From: Streptomyces sp. NBC_00820
GTDB taxonomy: Bacteria; Actinomycetota; Actinomycetes; Streptomycetales; Streptomycetaceae
Assembly: GCF_036347055.1 (NCBI RefSeq)
Contig: NZ_CP108882.1
Location: 5,250,501-5,314,500 of the forward strand
Reading direction: 5' to 3'
DNA: 64,000 bases
Part shown: positions 21,752 through 31,094 of the stretch, in pieces
How positions within the stretch are numbered: position 1 is the stretch's first letter
How the letters are laid out: each line of letters opens with the position of its first letter
The notes under the pieces: model-generated
The model's input: only the letters and a program-made list of their open reading frames with translations
What the model was told of the DNA's origin: nothing
The model's database searches: none
Translations under genes and position numbers: made by a program

Positions 21752-22195
21752 GTGTTCAATGACATAGGGCCGCTCGAGCTGGTGACGCTCATCGTCCTCG
21801 CCGTGCTCGTCTTCGGTCCGGACAAGCTCCCGAAGGTCATCCAGGACGTCACGCGCACGATCCGGAAGATCCGCGAGTTCTCGGAGAGCGCCAAGCAGGA
21901 CATCCGCGACGAGCTGGGTCCCGAGTTCAAGGACTTCGAGTTCGAGGACCTCAACCCCAAGACCTACCTGCGCAAGCAGCTCGACGGCGACGCGCTGGGG
22001 CTCGGCGAGATCCGCAACGGCTTCGACCTGAAGAAGGAGATCGCCGAGGTCACCGACGCGGTCAACGGCCGCGCCGGCGCTGATTCCTCCGACTCCTCCG
22101 CCGCCTCTTCGGCCGTCGGCCGTGTCGACATGACCAAGCGGCCCGAAGTGCCCGCCAAGGACGACCGCCCGCTCTTCGACGCCGACGCCACCTGA
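21752..22195 (+). CDS. tatB: Sec-independent protein translocase TatB
   Basis: 147 residues. The N-terminal helix FNDIGPLELVTLIVLAVLVFGP with the conserved Glu and the FGP hinge is followed by an amphipathic helix (KLPKVIQDVTRTIRKIREF). TatB, with TatA and TatC, exports folded twin-arginine proteins. GTG at 21752 follows AAGGAGCTTT. The interval after it (22196-22523) has no gene: it holds degenerate CCGGGACAC-type repeats and, around 22431-22438, a possible -10 box (GATATGCT) for the next gene. Confidence 0.94.
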   Translation: MFNDIGPLELVTLIVLAVLVFGPDKLPKVIQDVTRTIRKIREFSESAKQDIRDELGPEFKDFEFEDLNPKTYLRKQLDGDALGLGEIRNGFDLKKEIAEVTDAVNGRAGADSSDSSAASSAVGRVDMTKRPEVPAKDDRPLFDADAT

Positions 22196-22523
22196 CGCTC
22201 CGACCGCGCGGCCGACCGCGCGGGCCCCGGCCGGTCCCGAAACACCGCGACACACCGGGACACACCCGGGCACTCGGAAACACGCGGAGACTCACCCGGA
22301 CTCGCCGGGACACGCGGGGAACACCTCGTACGTGACGCGTTTCATAGCCCGCACCTGCCGTACGAGCCTCTGACGGGCCGTCCGGACGACCCACGCGCCG
22401 ATCGGTTTCCCTGCTGCTCTCAGCAGTGTGGATATGCTGCCGAGTTGTTGTGCGGACCGGCGGAGTACGCCCGAGGGGGGCGGGCAGCCCCGGTCCGACG
22501 AGAGCGAGGAGGCGTCCGGGCAG

Positions 22524-23195
22524 ATGGAGACGACGAGTCGGGTGGGCGCGAACGCGCCGGCCGCGTCGGGCGGACAGCAGTTCCCCGTCGCACGGCGCAC
22601 GGTCGACGGCTACCTGCAGGCGCCCTTCCCGTGGTACGGCCTCGACGAGGCGTTCACGGGGCCGCGTTGGCTGATGCAGGTCGGCATGGCGGCTGATGGC
22701 GCGGTTGAACACGGATCGATGGGGCACGGGGACGAGCCCTCCGTCCGTAACGAGCATGTGGCCGCGTCCACGGACGAGCCGAGGGAGAAGTTCGCGGTCG
22801 TGGTGACCGTGCCCGCGAACCCGTCCCGGCGCAGCGCCGACGGCACGGGGCTGCTGGAGGCGACATCGGTGTCCTCGGCGGCCTGGCTGGCCGGTGTGGG
22901 GCTGCTGTCGTTCACCTGGCCGGGGCAGATGGACCACAGCCTGCGGGACGACTGGCTGGACCAGCAGACGGAGACCGCCTGGGCCCTGGCCGACGACCTC
23001 GAGGGACCGGAGTGGTCCAGGCTCTCCCTGCCGGTGGACGGGGTGGCCACGTCGTTCTACTACCGGGAGTCGGAGTTCGGCTGGGTGCTGGCCGGCGCCA
23101 CCGAGGCCGGGGTGCATGTCGGGGCCTACGGCCGGGGCATGAGCGCGTACGGGCTCGGGTTCGCCGTCGTGAAGGACCTCGCCGCGTACGCCTAG
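22524..23195 (+). CDS. conserved hypothetical protein
   Basis: 223 residues starting METTSRVGANAP at an ATG preceded by GAGGAGG (14 nt upstream). A longer in-frame ATG at 22428 is less likely. There is no signal peptide or membrane helix. The first half contains the DGYLQAPFPWYGLDEAFTG motif, the second half alternating beta-like stretches (ATSFYYRESEFGWVLAGATEAGVHVGAYG, in two parts). I do not recognise the family. The gene lies between tatB and the element insertion site, convergent with mrp before the insertion. Confidence 0.7.
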   Translation: METTSRVGANAPAASGGQQFPVARRTVDGYLQAPFPWYGLDEAFTGPRWLMQVGMAADGAVEHGSMGHGDEPSVRNEHVAASTDEPREKFAVVVTVPANPSRRSADGTGLLEATSVSSAAWLAGVGLLSFTWPGQMDHSLRDDWLDQQTETAWALADDLEGPEWSRLSLPVDGVATSFYYRESEFGWVLAGATEAGVHVGAYGRGMSAYGLGFAVVKDLAAYA

Positions 23196-23218
23196 CCGGC
23201 GAGGTCCTTCACGACGGC
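23163..23218 (+). terminator. terminator built partly from the coding sequence
   Basis: A perfect 22-bp inverted repeat (23163-23184 with 23197-23218) with a 12-nt loop that contains the TAG stop of the preceding gene. The left arm encodes the last residues (VVKDLAA). The right arm is an exact inverted copy downstream. Confidence 0.8.
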
Positions 23219-23321
23219 CGGCCGGGGGAATCCCCGGCCCGCCGCTTCGGCGGCGGACCCGTCGACGAGCGCAGGATCCGACTACGCGCGTTGGGCCCGC
23301 CGACGAGCGCAGGGCCCAACG

Positions 23322-23355
23322 GCGAAGGGGCGCCCACGATGTGGCGCCCCTTCGC
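23322..23355 (-). terminator. probable original terminator of mrp
   Basis: A perfect 13-bp stem (GCGAAGGGGCGCC with its complement, 8-nt loop) lies 12 bp beyond the left copy of the mrp 3' end at 23368. Read on the minus strand it is placed exactly as a terminator for mrp before the element separated them. Confidence 0.65.
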
Positions 23356-23367
23356 TGTGAGCAGTGC

Positions 23368-23383
23368 TCAGAACTTGTTCTTC
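23368..23383. repeat. attL-like direct repeat (copy of the mrp 3' end)
   Basis: TCAGAACTTGTTCTTC, identical to 29797-29812. On the minus strand it encodes KNKF-stop, the last codons of mrp. It lies 15 bp from the stop of the integrase remnant, the usual position of int next to its attachment site. Confidence 0.8.
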
Positions 23384-23398
23384 CGGTAAAATACCAGG

Positions 23399-24335
23399 TC
23401 AAGCCTCTTTCCCGGTATCCGGGGCCGTGCTCGGGCCGTCAGAGCGGGAAGACCCCCCGAAGAGAGCATCCACAGCGGACCTCGTTCGGCTGTCACTGCT
23501 GGGCATGAGGTGCGTGTACGTGCGCAGCGTGAAGGCCGGATCAGCGTGACCGAGGTACTCGCTGAGAGCCTTGATGCTCTCCCCGGCGTCGAGCAGCACC
23601 GATGCGTAGAAGTGCCTCAGCGCATGCATGCCGTTGCCCGGCCCAGGAGTGATTCCGCCGGCTAGAAGCGCCGGTCGCCAAAACTGCTTGTTGAACGGGT
23701 TTCGGTCGATTGCCATCCCCCCTGGAGACCGACAGATCACCGGCACAGAGACAGCCGAGCCGTCCAGCGTCCGCCAAGGCAGCTCGACCTCCGCAGGAGG
23801 GTTGCTGAGTCAGGTGTGCCGCCAACGAGGCAGCCACGGAATCCGGCAGCGGCACGTCCCTCACCTTGCCGCCCTTAGGTAGGGCGAAGACCCGACGTCC
23901 ATGCAAGAGCTTCACCTGTCGCACGACGTGCAGAGTGCCGCTCCGGAAATCGACGTCATCTGCACCGAGCCCGAAGGCTTCCCCCTGACGAAGCCCACAA
24001 CCGGCCGCGAGGTCCACAAGGACCCGGTAGCGGGCATCGAGCGCGCCCCGCACGGCACACACTTGCTCGAACGACCAGGGCACGACCTTTCTGGGATCAA
24101 GCCGCGGGGCCTTCACCGAGCGCGACCGGCAGGGGTTCTCGTGGATGATCCGGTCCTCCACAGCGGCGGTGAACACGGTCGAGACATGAGCGAAGATGGC
24201 ACGGCGATAAGCGGAGGCCAGACCGTTCCCTTCCAGAGTCCGGAGCCAGGACCGCACATGTGACGGCGTGAACGACGCCATGGGCCGTCCGCCGATGTGC
24301 GGGAGGGGGCGCCGTTGCCGCCCGCGGGTCCGTAG
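23399..24335 (-). pseudogene. tyrosine recombinase/integrase, frameshifted and N-terminally degraded
   Basis: The minus strand encodes a phage-type integrase in two frames. The upstream part (from LPHIGGRPM, about 24300, to HLTQQP) contains the core-binding end and the first catalytic region AAGCGLRQGEAFGLGADD. The downstream part (from about 23800 to 23399) carries MHALRHFYASVLLDAG and LSEYLGHADPAFTLRTYTH with the catalytic His-Arg, His and Tyr. One extra C in the run at 23799-23801 breaks the frame; removing it joins HLTQQP to PAEVELPW. The usual N-terminal domain is not found in one frame. It lies directly beside the attL-like repeat. Confidence 0.85.
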
Positions 24336-24349
24336 TGGCGTGCGCGGGG

Positions 24350-24497
24350 TGCTCCCATCCCGTACACCATCGACCCAGGCAGAGCCGAGCAGACGCGGCC
24401 CATGGCGTCCAGGTCGTTCGTACAGTGGCGCGCTCCACCTGGACGCCATGAACCACGCCCGCTCCACGGTGTGTGGGTCGACGGCGTACGGGATGGG
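24350..24497. repeat. long imperfect inverted repeat
   Basis: Two outer arms of 27 bp (starting GCTCCCATCCCGTAC at about 24352 and ending GTACGGGATGGGAGC near 24497) match at 25 positions. Two inner arms of 14 bp (CATGGCGTCCAGGT and ACCTGGACGCCATG, about 24402-24452) are perfect. The 23-bp middle blocks are about half identical. Both arms, read outward on opposite strands, encode similar short peptides (containing YGMGA). Confidence 0.65.
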
Positions 24498-24661
24498 AGC
24501 TGGGGTGAGCGGTGGGTATGGGGAGGTGGTTAGCCACGCTGCTAAGCCGAAAGGACCTTCACATTCCTCTACTTGCCGCTGTGGTTCCCCTCTTGGGTAC
24601 TTTTGCCGTACGGTGGATGTAAGCGCTGACCCGTAGCTCATGCTTCGGCTAGGCACTTTCC

Positions 24662-24684
24662 GCCCCCTGGTGTATCCAGGGGGC
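24662..24684 (+). terminator. Rho-independent terminator with U tract
   Basis: GCCCCCTGG-TGTAT-CCAGGGGGC followed by CTTAACTTTTT. This is an unusually canonical terminator for this genome, on the plus strand, 20 bp from the DUF3800 stop on the minus strand. No plus-strand gene that it would serve is evident, although a short ORF starting at ATG 24448 would end near 24636. Confidence 0.65.
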
Positions 24685-24685
24685 C

Positions 24686-25444
24686 TTAACTTTTTCGCAC
24701 TACGATCCTCGGTGCAGGCCCGCCAGACATCCTGTTGGTCTCGCGTCTCATGGCATCACCGAGCTCAAGCCACATGTCTGCCGGGCAAACGGAAGAGACC
24801 GCGCGCGAAGGTGGCACGTAAGCTCTGAACGCCGCGTGGGCGGCGAGGTCGGCAAACTGGATGAAATAGGAATGATCCGAGCGTCGAGGAACCGGGTCAT
24901 CGAGCAGCATCCACGCCGGAACGTTGATTGATCCAGTGCCATAGGCGCTGCCAGCAGTCATGTGCCGCCGAGACTTTCGTACGAGGCGCCGAACGTGGTC
25001 GTCTTCGCCTTCGTCATGAAAGATCATGATTGGAGTCTTTGCGGCGTGACTGGCCCGCTCCAAGCGTTGCATGAGCGTGGTCCAAGCCAGCTCAAAGCAT
25101 GCACCATCGCTGAGTCCAACCGCCCGCTTGTCGATGATGATGGCAAATGCCTTGGCTTTCAGGTCCACCAAGGCCCGCATGTGGGCGCGGTAGATGATCT
25201 GTCGGCCGCGCGGCCCGATGCCGAGGTGTCGGATGCTCCCGCTGTTGCGCAGTAGGAAGTTCGCCTTGAGTTCGGAGCGCATGAGCACCCCGAACTTATC
25301 TCGGAGGCGCCGGCGGAAGGCAACGGCCTCATCGAACGAGGTGGCCCAGTTGTGATCTTCGATCAGGACACACCCGAGGGTGTACGTAAGGGTGCCGCCC
25401 TGCTCCACGGCACCAGTGTTGCCAGACTCATCGATATAGGCCAT
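24686..25444 (-). CDS. DUF3800 domain protein
   Basis: 252 residues beginning MAYIDESGNTG, the hallmark of DUF3800, whose first Asp-Glu is thought to be part of an RNase H-like/nuclease-type active site. A second conserved acidic part is seen in FHDEGEDDHVRRL, with a C-terminal QFADLAAHAAF helix. A GTG at 25468 would add eight residues. Members are frequent on integrated elements and near defence genes, but their activity is not established. It is divergent from the DndB-like gene, with 306 bp between them that contain a 12-bp inverted repeat. Confidence 0.8.
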   Translation of the reverse strand: MAYIDESGNTGAVEQGGTLTYTLGCVLIEDHNWATSFDEAVAFRRRLRDKFGVLMRSELKANFLLRNSGSIRHLGIGPRGRQIIYRAHMRALVDLKAKAFAIIIDKRAVGLSDGACFELAWTTLMQRLERASHAAKTPIMIFHDEGEDDHVRRLVRKSRRHMTAGSAYGTGSINVPAWMLLDDPVPRRSDHSYFIQFADLAAHAAFRAYVPPSRAVSSVCPADMWLELGDAMRRETNRMSGGPAPRIVVRKS

Positions 25445-25613
25445 TAGCACCACAACATCATGCAGCACTCACCCGAACGAAGACCATCCTGTCACTCAAT
25501 CTGAATTGATCTACGGTCAGTTGCGATCCGACGTTGTACCCCTTCCGGCGAAGCGTGTTGACCTGGGATTAGACGCTCATCGCCACCTTGCGCCACCCGC
25601 CGCCACCGGTCCG

Positions 25614-25677
25614 CTACGCAAGAACTCCAGCTCTAGACGCAGGATTTAACTGGTAGTCAGGTGAGGTTCTTGCGTAG
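25614..25677. promoter_or_regulatory. 12-bp inverted repeat upstream of the dndB-like gene
   Basis: CTACGCAAGAAC (25614-25625) and GTTCTTGCGTAG (25666-25677) are exact inverted copies separated by 40 bp, ending 73 bp before the dndB-like start in the divergent promoter region of the DUF3800 and dndB-like genes. It could be a looping operator pair; function inferred. Confidence 0.45.
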
Positions 25678-25750
25678 TAGTGTCCTCTTCCGCGACTGGC
25701 GCTCACTTGGTCTGCTGTAGGCCTGCGTCAACGCGCGGAGGGGGAGCGGG

Positions 25751-26962
25751 ATGCCTAAGATCCACATTCCTGTCATCGGCTACAAGCAGGGCGGTCGACA
25801 GATGATGACCACCGCCATGTCTGCCGTCGACCTCGTGTCGATGGTGGCCAAGCCGGAGGCGTGGGATCCGGTCAAGACCACCGCCCATGGCAATCGGCCG
25901 CGCGACAACAACCACATGGCCGGCATCGTCAGCTACTTGGAGACCGAGGAGAAGTTCGTCCTCGGCGCCGCGGTGCTGTACCTCACGTCGAAGGAGGCTG
26001 AGTTCAAGCCCATCCCCGTTCCCGGCGTCACGACGGAAATCGATGCCGCGCAGGTGGGCACCCTCGCCATCGACATTGGGGCAAAGTTCGACATCGGTGA
26101 CGGACAGCACCGCATCGGCGCTTACGAGAAGATCGTCCAGAGTCGCGACGAAGACGATCCGCTCATTGAGCGCTTGCGCACCGCCGGCCAGCCTCTGATC
26201 ATCGTTATCGAGGACGACCCCAAGCACCGCGCGCAGGACTTCGCCGATCTTCAGCGCAACGTCAAGGCCCCGACGGCCTCTATGGGTCAGTCCATGGATC
26301 GCCGTCAACCCATCAACCGCGAGCTCTCCGACCTCTTCGACGACGTCCCGCTCCTCCAGGACAAGGTCGAGTACTTCAAGGACAACCCGGGCAAGCTCTC
26401 GGCGAAGGCGTTCAGCTTCAAGACCGTCCGTTACGTCTCTGGGCTGCTTCTGGTCGGCAATGGCTACCGCTCGCCGGCCACCATGGACAAGGCTGTCAAC
26501 GGCCGCTTCGAGGGCGAAAAGAGTGATCCTGAGAAGGCTCGCTCCACCCTGAAGGAGTTCTGGACTGGGCTGGGAGAGCTGGTTCGCTTCGCTGACGTCG
26601 TGGACGGCAACGTCACCGTTCCTGAGCTGCGTGAGGCTACCTACCTCACCTCTGCCGGCGTTCTGTACGCCATCGCTTTTGCGGTCCACGCGATCACCCT
26701 CGACGGCAAGACCAGCGTCGCGGATGCGGTCCGCGCCTTGGATGGGGTGGACTTCGACCGCACCACCAAGACGGCCGACATTAAGATCGAAGACACGATC
26801 TTCGCCGGCAACCTGATCGACCCCGAAACGGGCAAGCTCGTGGCTGGTCGAACGGCCTGGGAGGCCGCGGGCGCCCTGCTCTTCGCAGAGATCGCCACGG
26901 TTCTCCATGGCAGCGGCACCGTCCCCGCTCAGACGTCTGCAGATGAGACGGCCAGCGTCTGA
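25751..26962 (+). CDS. orphan DndB-family (DGQHR domain) protein
   Basis: 403 residues. The DGQHR signature is intact in FDIGDGQHRIGAYE (about residues 115-128) and is preceded by the N-terminal beta region typical of DndB (IHIPVIGYKQGGRQMMTTAM). In dnd systems DndB represses and modulates DNA phosphorothioation, but no dndA, C, D or E is present here. DGQHR proteins also resemble ParB-type nuclease folds. The ATG at 25751 follows a GGAGGGGGAG run. A 15-bp terminator lies 20 bp after the stop. It is plausibly a defence or counter-defence gene of the element. Confidence 0.82.
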   Translation: MPKIHIPVIGYKQGGRQMMTTAMSAVDLVSMVAKPEAWDPVKTTAHGNRPRDNNHMAGIVSYLETEEKFVLGAAVLYLTSKEAEFKPIPVPGVTTEIDAAQVGTLAIDIGAKFDIGDGQHRIGAYEKIVQSRDEDDPLIERLRTAGQPLIIVIEDDPKHRAQDFADLQRNVKAPTASMGQSMDRRQPINRELSDLFDDVPLLQDKVEYFKDNPGKLSAKAFSFKTVRYVSGLLLVGNGYRSPATMDKAVNGRFEGEKSDPEKARSTLKEFWTGLGELVRFADVVDGNVTVPELREATYLTSAGVLYAIAFAVHAITLDGKTSVADAVRALDGVDFDRTTKTADIKIEDTIFAGNLIDPETGKLVAGRTAWEAAGALLFAEIATVLHGSGTVPAQTSADETASV

Positions 26963-26982
26963 TCGATGCCGTTCCGACACTG

Positions 26983-27023
26983 ATCGGTCGCCGTTCCTTG
27001 ACATCCGCGGAACGGCGACCGAT
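26983..27023 (+). terminator. terminator after dndB-like gene
   Basis: A perfect 15-bp stem (26983-26997 with 27009-27023) and an 11-nt loop. Confidence 0.8.
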
Positions 27024-27181
27024 GTGCATACGGCTTAGGAGGGCAGCATGCGCAGCGAAGAGCAATGCTCGGAACCTGTGGATCGGTGCCGGGAGGAACG
27101 CGGAGGGCGTACCTTCCCGATGATCCCTTGAAGGTCTCCGAGTAGGCCCGCGTTCGCAGCGCGGGTCGGGAAGGCACGCCC

Positions 27182-28435
27182 GTGCTGAGCGTAGTGAACG
27201 CGGACGGCAGTATCGCGTCCGGCTCCCTGATCGACGAGATCGTCCGCGAGGGCGCCCGCCGGATGCTGGCCGCCGCGCTGGAGGCGGAAGTCAACCAGTA
27301 CATAGCCGAGTTGGCTGCCGAGACCGACGAGCGCGGACGGCGCCTGGTCGTACGCAACGGCCACCACCGGCCCAGGACAGTCGTCACCGCGGCCGGGCCG
27401 GTCGAGGTCACCGCGCCGCGCGTCAACGACCGCCGCGTCGACGAGGCCACCGGCGAGCGCAAGCGGTTCTCCTCCAAGATCCTTGCGCCGTGGTGCCGCA
27501 AGTCACCGAAGATCTCGGAGGTGCTGCCGCTGCTCTACCTGCACGGACTGTCGTCCGGAGACTTCGTGCCCGCGCTGGAGCAGTTCCTCGGCGGCACGGC
27601 CGGACTGTCGGCCGCGACGGTGACCCGGCTGACGAAGCAGTGGAGCGACGACCACGCCGCCTTCCAGGACCGGGACCTGTCCGACCGTGATTTCGTCTAC
27701 GTATGGGCCGACGGGGTCCACCCGAAGGTGCGGCTCGGCCAGGCGCACTCGTGCGTGCTGGTCATCCTCGGCGTCCGCCTGGACGGCACCAAGGAGCTGA
27801 TCGCGCTGGCCGAGGGACTGCGGGAGTCCACCGAGTCGTGGGCCGACCTGCTGCGCGACTGCCGCCGCCGCGGAATGCGCGACCCCGAACTCGTCATCGG
27901 CGACGGCGCGATGGGCCTGTGGAAAGCCCTGATCGAGGTGTTCCCGACGGCTCGGCACCAGCGCTGCTGGGTCCATAAAGCCCGTAACGTGACGAACTGT
28001 CTTCCGAAGTCCGCACAGCCGGGCGCAACGAAGGCAATGCAGGAGATCTACAACGCAGAGGACAGGGCCCACGCCGAGAAGGCGATCGAGGCGTTCTCCC
28101 GCACTTACGGCACGAAGTGGCCCAAGGCCGTCGCGAAGATCACCGACGACCGGGACGAACTGCTCGCGTTCTACGACTTCCCGGCCGAGCACTGGGTCCA
28201 CCTGCGGACCACGAATCCCATCGAGTCGACCTTCTCCACCGTCAAGCTCCGGACCAAGGTCACCCGAGGCGCCGGCAGCCCGGCCGCGGCCCTGGCCATG
28301 GTGTTCAAGCTCGTCGAATCCGCCCAGGCCCGCTGGCGGGCGATCACCGGAGCCCACCTGGTCCCACTCGTCCGGGCCGGGGCCCGGTTCGAGAACGGTC
28401 TGCTGGTCGAACGCACCGAAAGCCACGCGGCCTGA
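27182..28435 (+). CDS. IS256-family transposase (mutator type)
   Basis: 417 residues, apparently full length. The DDE triad contexts are VWADGVH, VIGDGAMGLW and TNPIESTFSTVKLRTK, and the HQRCWVHKARNV stretch (the C-x2-H region) is typical of the family. GTG at 27182 is the chosen start; about 120 bp separate it from the left inverted repeat. No frameshift is visible, so the enzyme is probably active. Confidence 0.93.
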   Translation: MLSVVNADGSIASGSLIDEIVREGARRMLAAALEAEVNQYIAELAAETDERGRRLVVRNGHHRPRTVVTAAGPVEVTAPRVNDRRVDEATGERKRFSSKILAPWCRKSPKISEVLPLLYLHGLSSGDFVPALEQFLGGTAGLSAATVTRLTKQWSDDHAAFQDRDLSDRDFVYVWADGVHPKVRLGQAHSCVLVILGVRLDGTKELIALAEGLRESTESWADLLRDCRRRGMRDPELVIGDGAMGLWKALIEVFPTARHQRCWVHKARNVTNCLPKSAQPGATKAMQEIYNAEDRAHAEKAIEAFSRTYGTKWPKAVAKITDDRDELLAFYDFPAEHWVHLRTTNPIESTFSTVKLRTKVTRGAGSPAAALAMVFKLVESAQARWRAITGAHLVPLVRAGARFENGLLVERTESHAA

Positions 28436-28448
28436 GGAGAATGCCCAG

Positions 28449-28775
28449 ATGACCGTCTCCGACACCTACGGCACGAACTCCTACACAGCCAAGGAGTTGG
28501 CCAGCCTGCTCGCCGACCGACTCGACGTGACCTTCACCGAACGCGAGAGCGACTACCTCGGCGTCTACTTCCTGGCCACCCTCGCCGACACGACCCGCCT
28601 CCAGATCCAGCCGAACGCCATTCCCGGAGACGACGAGGAAGACGATCTCTACGACGACGAGCACCCCGACGTGTCGGTACTCCTGCTCATCACCTCGCCG
28701 GCCGCCGCCGAGCCTCTCAGCAACGAGCTCTCGGCGGTCGGAGAACTCACCAGGCTCCGATCAACTCGAAGCTGA
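28449..28775 (+). CDS. passenger gene inside the IS256-type element
   Basis: 108 residues, 13 bp after the transposase stop, with GAGGAGAATGCCCAG before the ATG. It ends 7 bp before the right inverted repeat, so it is fully inside the element. The sequence has TAKELASLLADRLDVTFTER, an acidic loop (GDDEEDDLYDDEHPD) and a LLLITSPAA beta strand. I do not recognise it. A role as transposition regulator or as immunity-like cargo is possible but unsupported. Confidence 0.65.
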   Translation: MTVSDTYGTNSYTAKELASLLADRLDVTFTERESDYLGVYFLATLADTTRLQIQPNAIPGDDEEDDLYDDEHPDVSVLLLITSPAAAEPLSNELSAVGELTRLRSTRS

Positions 28776-29024
28776 GCAACTGCCGATCCACAAGTCTTGA
28801 CTATTGCTCCGCAGCGAACCCAGCTCTGCGGTACAGCAGTGAAGTACAGCAACCGCAGCAACCGGCCTCACCCAGCACCGGCCCCGCAAGACCGTAGCTC
28901 GACCGGTATGACCGTTCGCGACCGATCCACATAGAGCTACGGATCAGAAGGTGCCCGTGCCCCATCCGTGCCCGATGCCGCGGGAACCTGCGGGGAACAC
29001 CGGGCAGGCACGGTGATCGAGCAC

Positions 29025-29067
29025 GAGAACGGCCCCCGACCAGATGCCCAGGTCAGGGGCCATTCTC
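29025..29067 (-). terminator. terminator beyond the tRNA-Ser fragment
   Basis: A stem of 15 pairs in 17 positions (29025-29041 with 29051-29067) lies just 3' of the tRNA-Ser fragment on the minus strand, as expected for a former tRNA transcription unit. Confidence 0.6.
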
Positions 29068-29080
29068 ACTGCTCATCAAG

Positions 29081-29141
29081 CGGAGGTGGTGGGATTTGAA
29101 CCCACGGTGACATCGCTGCCACGACGGTTTTCAAGACCGTA
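29081..29141 (-). pseudogene. 3' half of tRNA-Ser(UGA)
   Basis: On the minus strand the anticodon arm ACGGT-CTTGAAA-ACCGT (anticodon TGA, Ser), a long variable arm, the T arm GTGGG-TTCAAAT-CCCAC, the acceptor 3' strand CACCTCC and discriminator G are all present. The expected 5' acceptor strand (GGAGGTG) and the D arm are absent; the sequence becomes unrelated after 29141. It is the kind of 3' tRNA remnant left by integrases that target tRNA genes. A tRNA finder may report it as a pseudo-tRNA. Confidence 0.75.
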
Positions 29142-29167
29142 TGCCGCAGCCCGAGGCGGGCGGGCGA

Positions 29168-29545
29168 TCAGTTACCAGTGAAGACGGGGACGATCACTGC
29201 TGCGATCGCAGAGAGTAGGCCGGCTACGGCCAAGAAGGCGTTGAACTTCTCCTTCGGGGTCGGGAAAACGGCACGACTCACGTCCCCGACCTTGCTCCGC
29301 AGCACGATCATCTTGAGCTTCTGCCAACGATGTTGGCGGTTTCGGCACCCCATCAGTACGCCATAAGCGTTGTTCCGGCAGTAGGTCCGACCGTCCCGAT
29401 TGACCGCTCCACACCAGACCGGCACCTGGAAAGAAGCGTAGGCGAAGACCGCAACGGACAAAGCGGCGGTGATCGGGAGGGCCCATCGCTGGGTCCACGC
29501 GACGACGAGTGCCCCAACCGCGATATATCCCCAGTACAGGCGCAT
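29168..29545 (-). CDS. small membrane protein of the element
   Basis: 125 residues from an ATG preceded by GGGGAA (an upstream ATG at 29557 has no good ribosome site). Two adjacent N-terminal hydrophobic segments (YWGYIAVGALVVAW, LPITAALSVAVFAYASF) are followed by a Cys-containing loop (VWCGAVNRDGRTYCRNNAYG ... GCRN) and a C-terminal helix (AFLAVAGLLSAIAAVIVPVF). The Cys pattern hints at metal binding or disulphides. Function unknown. Confidence 0.6.
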   Translation of the reverse strand: MRLYWGYIAVGALVVAWTQRWALPITAALSVAVFAYASFQVPVWCGAVNRDGRTYCRNNAYGVLMGCRNRQHRWQKLKMIVLRSKVGDVSRAVFPTPKEKFNAFLAVAGLLSAIAAVIVPVFTGN

Positions 29546-29735
29546 GGCTTTCCCCATGAGAGCGCAGCGTAATGGCATATGCGCAGGTCAAGCAGCAGCG
29601 CGAATCAGACAGAATCGCCGCTATGGCGTATACGTCCCTCTTGACTGCCGGTGCCTTTGGCGAAGCGGTCCGGTCCGGGCCGTCTCCGGGCCGTCCGGCG
29701 GTGCTCGGCGATGACCGGCGATGACAAACGTCGAC

Positions 29736-29775
29736 GGCTCCGCCGCTGGTCAGAGAGTTGACCGGTGACGGAGCC
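29736..29775 (-). terminator. hairpin now serving mrp
   Basis: GGCTCCG/CGGAGCC outer stem with an inner GGTCA/TGACC stem, 21 bp beyond the mrp stop and inside the element. It appears to replace the native terminator displaced to 23322-23355. Confidence 0.5.
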
Positions 29776-29796
29776 GCAGATCGCAGGGGGGCGACT

Positions 29797-29812
29797 TCAG
29801 AACTTGTTCTTC
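29797..29812. repeat. attR-like direct repeat (3' end of the present mrp)
   Basis: TCAGAACTTGTTCTTC, identical to 23368-23383; flanking bases differ on both sides of both copies. It includes the mrp stop codon. Confidence 0.8.
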
Positions 29813-30954
29813 GGGGTGAGACCCAGTGACAGGCCCGACAGGCCGCGCTGCCGGCCGCCCAGCTTGCCCGCGATGGCACGCAGGGCGGAGCCGGCCGGGG
29901 AGTCCGGGTCGGTGAGGACGATCGGCTTGCCCTCGTCGCCGCCCTCGCGGAGGCGGACGTCGATGGGGATGCTGCCGAGGACCGGAACCGTCGTGCCCGT
30001 GGTGCGGGTCAGGCCCTCGGCGACCATCTGGCCGCCGCCCGTGCCGAAGACGTCGACCATGTCGCCGCAGTGCGGGCACGGCAGGCCGGACATGTTCTCG
30101 ACCACGCCGACGATCTTCTGGTGGGTCTGTACCGCGATCGAGCCGGCGCGCTCGGCGACCTCGGCCGCGGCCTGCTGCGGCGTCGTGACGACCAGGATCT
30201 CGGCGTTCGGGACCAGCTGCGCGACCGAGATGGCGATGTCACCGGTGCCGGGCGGCAGGTCCAGGAGCAGGACGTCCAGGTCGCCCCAGTACACGTCCGC
30301 CAGGAACTGCTGGAGGGCGCGGTGGAGCATCGGGCCGCGCCAGACGACCGGGGCGTTGCCCGGGGTGAACATGCCGATGGAGATGACCTTCACGCCGTTC
30401 GACTGCGGCGGCATGATCATGTTCTCGACCTGGGTCGGGCGGCCGTCCACGGCCAGCATGCGCGGCACGCTGTGGCCGTAGATGTCGGCGTCCACGACAC
30501 CGACCTTCAGACCGTCGGCGGCCATCGCGGCCGCCAGGTTCACCGTCACCGAGGACTTGCCGACGCCGCCCTTGCCGGAGGCGACCGCGTAGACGCGGGT
30601 GAGGCTGCCCGGCTTGGCGAAGGGGACCTCGCGCTCCGCCTGGCCGCCGCGCAGCGCGTTGGCCAGCTCCTTGCGCTGCTCGTCGCTCATCACGTCCAGC
30701 GTGACGCCGACACGGGTGACGCCTTCGACCCGGGACACCGCATCGGTCACACGCTGGGTGATCGTCTCGCGCATCGGGCAGCCGGAGACCGTCAGGTAGA
30801 CGGTGACCGCGACCGCTCCGTCCGCTCCGATCTCCACCGATTTGACCATGCCGAGTTCGGTGATGGGGCGGTTGATCTCGGGGTCGTTCACCGTCGCGAG
30901 CGCTGCGTGCACGGCGTCACTCGTCGGGGTGGAATCCGGCCTATCGGCAGCCAT
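29797..30954 (-). CDS. mrp: Mrp/NBP35-type Fe-S cluster carrier ATPase
   Basis: 385 residues. An N-terminal MIP18/DUF59 domain (residues 8-85, with GCPM) is followed by the P-loop ATPase domain with the deviant Walker motif SGKGGVGKSS and the bridging Cys pair in GLPCPHCGDM. The family carries and transfers [4Fe-4S] clusters to target proteins. ATG at 30954. The C terminus GLTPKNKF overlaps the attachment site of the integrated element, whose arrival kept the protein intact. The order with DUF1003 and the CBS/MgtE-like gene upstream is conserved (Rv1229c-Rv1232c). Confidence 0.94.
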   Translation of the reverse strand: MAADRPDSTPTSDAVHAALATVNDPEINRPITELGMVKSVEIGADGAVAVTVYLTVSGCPMRETITQRVTDAVSRVEGVTRVGVTLDVMSDEQRKELANALRGGQAEREVPFAKPGSLTRVYAVASGKGGVGKSSVTVNLAAAMAADGLKVGVVDADIYGHSVPRMLAVDGRPTQVENMIMPPQSNGVKVISIGMFTPGNAPVVWRGPMLHRALQQFLADVYWGDLDVLLLDLPPGTGDIAISVAQLVPNAEILVVTTPQQAAAEVAERAGSIAVQTHQKIVGVVENMSGLPCPHCGDMVDVFGTGGGQMVAEGLTRTTGTTVPVLGSIPIDVRLREGGDEGKPIVLTDPDSPAGSALRAIAGKLGGRQRGLSGLSLGLTPKNKF

Positions 30955-31094
30955 CGGTCTTCCTTCGCAGCTAGTCTCCTGCTCGAGCCATAAGGCGCCG
31001 GGCAGGGCTTGTCCGTCGTGAGGGCGCGGACGCGTTCAAATGAGAAGCCGCTCCCTCCGGGAGAGGCGGAGTCACAAGGACGATGTTACGGCGC

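Follow-up and report, generated by a model that had tools for sequence, protein, structure and literature searches.

A probable integrative-element relic at the 3′ end of mrp

The 64,000-nucleotide stretch of Streptomyces sp. NBC_00820 DNA analysed here (contig NZ_CP108882.1, positions 5,250,501–5,314,500; hereafter the window) contains, between tatB and the Fe–S carrier gene mrp, a 6.4 kb island which we conclude with high confidence to be what remains of an integrative element at the mrp stop codon, most likely an actinomycete integrative and conjugative element (AICE). This reading is carried by direct repeats at both borders, by empty sites in relatives, by further relics at this site in other species, by an integrase clade and by paired arm motifs (coordinates in Table 1).

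A search of the window returned two exact copies of the 16-mer TCAGAACTTGTTCTTC, one at each border of the island (16/16 bases equal, or 19 nt if one mismatch is allowed). These are also the only two exact copies in the entire genome (8,106,388 bp), where the chance expectation for one given 16-mer is ~0.004 per 8.1 Mb (both strands, arithmetic with equal bases). Read on the minus strand, the right repeat is AAG AAC AAG TTC TGA, i.e. KNKF-stop, the final codons of mrp; the mrp product also matched the MrpORP and ApbC models, but under their cut-offs. These data clearly bear out the original prediction that a repeat encoding the end of Mrp bounds the island, which has a G+C content of 64.4% compared with 72.1% in the flanks taken. 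The hairpin that the same prediction had placed to the left of the left repeat proved to be real, and similar hairpins were found in relatives.

An integrase gene adjoins the left border, as had been claimed, although it is broken. Its stop codon (23399–23401) lies 15 bp from the left repeat and the ORF (open reading frame) that ends there matches Phage_integrase, but the N-terminal part is missing and the remainder occupies two frames (23417–23800 and 23793–24305), with the frame change near 23793–23800. Residues ~46–118 of a long ORF at 23541–24656 do not belong to the integrase and derive instead from a repeat resembling a miniature inverted-repeat transposable element (MITE). The middle piece has 83–86% identity with the proteins P0002–P0006, the next proteins being ~62–73% identical, and in a quick tree with Shimodaira–Hasegawa-like approximate likelihood ratio (SH-aLRT) support and no bootstrap it formed one clade with P0002, P0003, P0004 and P0006 (SH-aLRT 100).

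In addition, the motif GGGCCGT-N4-GGGCCGT occurs just twice in the 64 kb, both strands included, once inside each repeat. A relaxed form (GGGCC[GC]T-N2..8-GGGCC[GC]T) was present near the integrase stop (from −250 to +150 bp) in 53/63 loci of the family, or in 34/42 when identical integrases were counted once, against an expectation of 0.019 per locus taken from the remainder of the same loci.

Empty sites and same-site relics in other genomes

The exact 16-mer was found in 34 of 392 genomes of the genus, with two copies solely in the genome of the window; the other 33 loci (29 plus four) are all mrp ends. We compared 21 loci with long flanks (L172–L191 and L223), drawn from loci with the 16-mer, from close relatives and from the right-end search described below, and hence not a random sample. 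The order tatB, conserved ORF, mrp was identical in all of them, and in 16 the interval between ORF and mrp was at most 271 bp, two of these (L173 and L190) having extra tandem cores. Empty sites that join the flanks via one copy of the core were therefore found, as the original prediction had expected. Most relatives with a short interval show, as judged by eye, a G+C-rich hairpin directly beyond mrp, so the hairpin now standing outside the left repeat is most likely the native mrp terminator. Longer intervals were seen in G239 (333 bp), G292 (~0.8 kb), G141 (2.0 kb), G016 (3.6 kb) and G061 (4.4 kb). As a separate observation, L190 (2606–2711, genome G014) has the mrp end and two near-copies within 38 bp beyond mrp, with no element there.

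The right end of the island (29640–29812) was then searched for in the 392 genomes, at least 171 of which gave some match at E 0.001. Among the matches listed, five places reach the core, and four of them lie at mrp: the window, G239:C6, G061:C91 and G292:C34. G292 has the complete layout of terminator, TCAGAACGTGTTCCTC, ~0.7 kb, arm, TCAGAACTTGTTCCTC and mrp; its repeats are equal at 15/16 bases, and both have CCTC, the form native to that species, in place of the window's CTTC. In G061 most of the integrase is lost, but two scraps remain, with 18/18 and 20/21 residues equal to P0006, a protein of the same clade as the integrase piece of the window; its other cargo resembles a MarR regulator, an MBL-fold hydrolase and an aldo/keto reductase (translations read by eye). 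All that G239 retains of the element is its right end, with part of the MITE-like repeat. In 3/48 genomes the first 1.5 kb beyond mrp held another copy of the mrp end, whereas a control stretch inside mrp held such a copy in 0/48 (one hand-chosen locus per genome, the window's own genome excluded).

In the fifth genome, G163, contig C6 (L222, 9562–10275) has a copy of the window's right end together with a copy of its 136-residue ORF and a degenerate tRNA-Ser fragment, away from mrp. The mrp gene of G163 has the 16-mer in two tandem copies 27 bp apart.

Targets across the integrase family

The original prediction held a protein-gene target to be unusual, and this proved to be overstated. A protein-coding target is the rule among the integrase relatives that we read and is published for Streptomyces AICEs and for the island PAISt, so we rejected the view of mrp as an exceptional kind of target. 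ARAGORN called no tRNA in 30 loci (2.4–4.1 kb) round the nearest integrases, the window's own included. In the 30 loci found with P0002 (L242–L271), the integrase adjoins the end of a CAP-domain gene in 13 cases, of hisN in six, of a gene ending in QLWLF in four, of nusG in two, and of murA and glnA in one each; three loci lack a target label. Further loci added gpm, a second glutamine synthetase gene and the 5′ end of rlmN, all other named targets being 3′ ends. Pfam was run on one example per named target gene, and NCBIfam on the same examples except the CAP gene; the QLWLF gene has no Pfam family, and MurA reached the cut-off of PRK09369 but not that of TIGR01072.

Six relatives could be read with both ends, and four of them have a repeat at the gene end: 15 and 11 bp at the CAP gene, 18 bp at gpm and 41 bp at the start of rlmN, the last (L228, 4016–4056 and 13337–13377) spanning the start codon. 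The remaining two (L225 and L227) have no clear end repeat.

Target patterns labelled 53/66 loci; L085, L089 and L091 were added by hand from the DNA, L085 (rlmN 5′ end) being the weakest. In a tree of 49 rows, 36 of them target-labelled in ten groups (7/42 locus rows were unlabelled), the labels required nine changes, which is the minimum for ten groups and was equalled in 0/200 shuffles. The rlmN label alone needed two changes and does not form one clade (31/500 shuffles were as low), and support for the CAP clade is just 47. On this tree the target follows the integrase clade, rlmN excepted, in a clustering to which near-copies contribute and which does not prove that each target arose once.

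The original prediction proposed to look for integrases next to another copy of the mrp 3′ end; no intact one was found in such a place in the 392 genomes or in 80 loci from a scan of genome contigs with the long integrase ORF of the window. In the former, the P0002 search (E ≤ 1e-120) listed no match above 70% identity, at a limit that misses broken copies such as the window's own. In the latter, 0/80 loci had an mrp match above 60% identity, and most of the 80 match the MITE-like stretch alone, since the search patterns lie partly inside it. A family-wide search at E 1e-200 gave 0/394, a zero that carries no weight alone. Elsewhere, viral contigs gave four distant relatives and plasmids two at ~55%, and phages gave none at E 1e-40.

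Content of the island

Between the repeats lie the broken pieces of a tyrosine integrase, cargo, an IS256-family transposase and a 3′ fragment of tRNA-Ser (Table 1). The family scans covered eight ORFs of the island.

Table 1. Features of the island and its flanks (positions in the window)
Feature	Position	Strand	Evidence
tatB, conserved host flank	21752..22195	+	NCBIfam NF002374 above cut-off; tatB-ORF-mrp order in L172–L191 and L223
Conserved host ORF adjoining the site, family unknown	22428..23195	+	tblastn ~62% and more in 21 loci; no family in Pfam or NCBIfam scans
Hairpin, expected native mrp terminator, outside left repeat	23318..23362	-	−31.3 kcal/mol, z −5.7
Left 16-bp repeat (attL core)	23368..23383	+	exact copy of right repeat
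Integrase C-terminal piece	23399..23746	-	Pfam Phage_integrase; 23417–23800 84% to P0002 residues 282–409
Left arm motif GGGCCGT-N4-GGGCCGT	23422..23439	+	38 bp inside left repeat
Integrase middle piece, other frame	23793..24305	-	85% to P0002 residues 114–284
MITE-like repeat beside lost integrase N-terminus	24352..24499 (noted stretch 24302–24520)		14-bp inverted ends
Cargo: DUF3800 protein	24686..25468	-	Pfam PF12686, E 1.1e-13
Cargo: DGQHR-domain protein (DndB-like)	25751..26962	+	Pfam DndB, E 4.5e-37
IS256-family transposase	27182..28435	+	NCBIfam NF033543 above cut-off; 86–88% to ten best plasmid records
ORF adjoining transposase	28449..28775	+	no match in Pfam, PADLOC or NCBIfam
tRNA-Ser(UGA) 3′ fragment	29083..29140	-	58 nt, 98% to two tRNA-Ser(tga) genes of own genome
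136-aa ORF	29168..29578	-	95% identical translated copy in G163:C6; Pfam CapC match below cut-off
Right arm motif GGGCCGT-N4-GGGCCGT	29677..29694	+	~100 bp inside right repeat
Right-arm hairpin, candidate replacement terminator	29734..29777	-	~20 nt downstream of mrp
Right 16-bp repeat (attR core), mrp end	29797..29812	+	exact copy of left repeat
mrp, Fe–S carrier gene, target	29797..30954	-	Pfam ParA and FeS_assembly_P

The MITE-like repeat has the inverted ends CTCCCATCCCGTAC and GTACGGGATGGGAG, at 24352 and 24486, and is represented elsewhere in the same genome by one 96% copy and two partial copies; DNA copies at 85–96% identity were found in 8/40 loci compared. The DGQHR-domain protein reaches the cut-off of the DGQHR model (75.6 compared with 58.85) but falls far short of the DndB equivalog (49.8 bits compared with 328). 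It accounts for the only PADLOC matches, which are DndB- and DpdB-like, and no further dnd genes were found among the island ORFs scanned. The tRNA-Ser fragment was not called as a tRNA gene; the two genes that it matches stand ~5.6 kb apart, and it is perhaps the attachment scar or site of another, second element. An Rfam scan of 22000–31000 gave zero matches at gathering score. The original call of an integrative element thus holds in so far as remains of one stand at mrp, but what is left is a composite relic with IS256, MITE and tRNA-Ser fragment and not an intact element.

Weighing the alternatives

Several observations weigh against a relic inserted by its integrase at mrp. Joined flanks of the window align unbroken over the junction in just two of the 21 loci (L179 and L187), a short spacer splitting the alignment into two pieces in the remaining 19. 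The inserts of G141 and G016 in the same interval (L174, 11760–13792, 2.0 kb; L181, 10452–14076, 3.6 kb) have no mrp-end repeat, so not every insertion between ORF and mrp is this element. In G061 the left copy agrees over 10 bases only. Two of the three genomes with a second mrp end, G163 and G014, have short tandem copies with the element absent there. One of the five right ends that reach the core among the matches listed, that of G163:C6, has its core TCAGAACTTGTTCCTC away from mrp. Lastly, the 392 genomes and the 80 scan loci yielded no mrp with an intact integrase next to it, a coverage that does not extend to the contexts of P0002–P0006.

The tandem copies in G163 and G014 could have arisen by slippage, and together with the inserts that lack a repeat they speak for an origin of the second mrp end in the window by local duplication or slippage, the cargo having entered later between the copies with no integrase involved. 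This leaves unexplained the paired arm motifs inside both repeats, the presence at mrp, in two species, of integrase remnants from a single clade and the agreement between target and clade over the family, and on these grounds we rejected slippage followed by an unrelated insertion as very improbable. We regard as just as improbable that the element belonged to tRNA-Ser, with the fragment at 29083–29140 as its real site of attachment and an incidental repeat at mrp. The 58-nt fragment, 98% identical with two genes of its own genome, and its degenerate counterpart at the same relative place in G163:C6 speak for such a target; yet the integrase pieces and arm motifs abut the mrp repeats, and the relatives of the integrase adjoin protein-gene ends, with no tRNA called by ARAGORN in 29 of their loci or the window's own. 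The relics in three other species with the same right end at mrp also speak against tRNA-Ser as the target, which we rejected. The composite nature of the island, with IS256, MITE and tRNA-Ser fragment, would also suit an integrase of another element that inserted later beside an existing cargo island, but the left and right arms share one motif, and in four species the right end is conserved at mrp together with the mrp core; this is the least probable of the three.

Proposed mechanism and decay

For insertion of the element by its integrase at mrp, we infer the recombination itself, the binding of the arms and the order of decay to have run as follows. The tyrosine integrase would recombine a core of ~10–16 bp, situated where mrp ends in its stop codon, with an identical sequence in the attP of the element, assisted by the paired GGGCCGT-N4-GGGCCGT arm sites on both sides, and would leave one copy of the core on each side, mrp intact and the terminator shifted 6.4 kb away. 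Later, the integrase would have been broken by loss of its N-terminus next to the MITE and by the frame break, and replication and transfer genes would have been lost while IS256 and other cargo stayed. Self-excision is unlikely because the integrase is broken.

The repeats, the empty sites, the same-site relics and the terminator outside the left repeat support the predicted site-specific insertion into the coding end of mrp. The restoration of the reading frame that was predicted along with it is more modest: mrp lies to the right of the core, so its coding sequence is native and the element contributes core bases at most, and what is displaced is the native terminator. In this context, the mrp-sense strand of 29735–29796 folds at −33.7 kcal/mol (z −5.3), and the hairpin was kept in 5/5 copies compared, including that of G163:C6 away from mrp, although with little covariation (2/32 predicted pairs preserved with both sides changed). 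A replacement terminator for mrp is a fair guess for this right-arm hairpin, the alternative being a binding site for integrase or excisionase.

Tentatively, and with a little less than even confidence, we suggest that an integrase family with constant GGGCCGT-N4-GGGCCGT arm sites radiated by retargeting of its core among at least eight conserved gene ends (mrp, hisN, nusG, murA, glnA, gpm, the CAP-domain gene and rlmN), most clades having become fixed on one. The elements would supply the last bases of the host gene and, at mrp, also a terminator hairpin in the arm, with the intact gene on the arm side for mrp and rlmN and on the integrase side for the others read.

Relation to AICEs and other known systems

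The island has the integrase family in common with AICE-like elements, but neither a replication initiator such as RepSA nor an FtsK/SpoIIIE transfer protein was found among its eight scanned ORFs. Four related elements were scanned in part. RepSA was found in L224 and L228, two of the four relatives with gene-end repeats, and not among the scanned ORFs of L226 and L229; all four have GntR-type regulators (GntR/UTRA in three, a GntR domain in the fourth), and the single FtsK match, in L229, was below cut-off. As RepSA is carried by two of the four, whose integrases share 67% (L224) and 51% (L228) identity with that of the window in the middle part, the mrp element is probably an AICE relic, and the integrase family resides at least in part on AICE-like elements.

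The available text of PMC9513070 gives the sites of Streptomyces AICEs and integrative and conjugative elements (ICEs) as 36 tRNA, 14 protein-coding (rlmN among them) and one intergenic, and describes decayed AICEs as repeats with a truncated integrase and cargo. According to the accessible part of PMC3218068, tyrosine-integrase AICEs stand overwhelmingly at tRNA 3′ ends, the pSLS subfamily being the exception, and in the portion of PMC12884075 at hand tRNA, tmRNA and intergenic sites together account for 56.6% of islands, with many in protein genes. The island resembles the AICEs of PMC3218068 and PMC9513070, as far as these sources were available, in a tyrosine integrase by one site, direct repeats at both ends and the pattern of decay. 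It differs in lacking Rep and Tra among the ORFs scanned and in its target, mrp, the sites named in the available text being tRNA genes, rlmN and a glycosyltransferase gene. With the pSLS integrases, compared by description only, it shares a place outside tRNA genes, theirs being the sole such AICE tyrosine-integrase subfamily in that part of PMC3218068.

PAISt of Streptomyces turgidiscabies, which integrates at the bacA 3′ end (PMC4057263, available in part), is alike in its tyrosine recombinase, its protein-gene 3′ end, the gene-end copies at its borders and the loss of the integrase in relatives. It is unlike the island in its 8-bp palindromic core and its size of 674 kb, and its INTSt was not identified as an integrase in Pfam, whereas the integrase of the island is. 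The dusA-associated integrases (PMC4482086, likewise partly available) are similarly one family tied to a conserved protein-coding gene with highly variable islands, but they use the 5′ end of dusA in other bacteria, whereas here clades of one family use different genes. We did not find mrp as an integration site in the literature searched, which did not cover supplementary site tables that may list it; the available text of PMC9513070 does not contain mrp, and that of PMC3218068 has it twice, the passage at hand being about the plasmid recombinase MrpA.

The element is most likely a decayed relic of AICE type, with a target that we did not find in print and an integrase family that uses conserved protein-gene ends. 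With it, mrp joins the integration targets of streptomycete elements. For AICEs at a tRNA-Arg gene, the available text of PMC9513070 remarks on a lack of correlation between site and integrase sequence; the correlation present in the sample analysed here qualifies that remark. Related integrases on different conserved genes form a natural series that would let the residues of core specificity be mapped, and they are candidate integrases for chromosomal insertion in Streptomyces.

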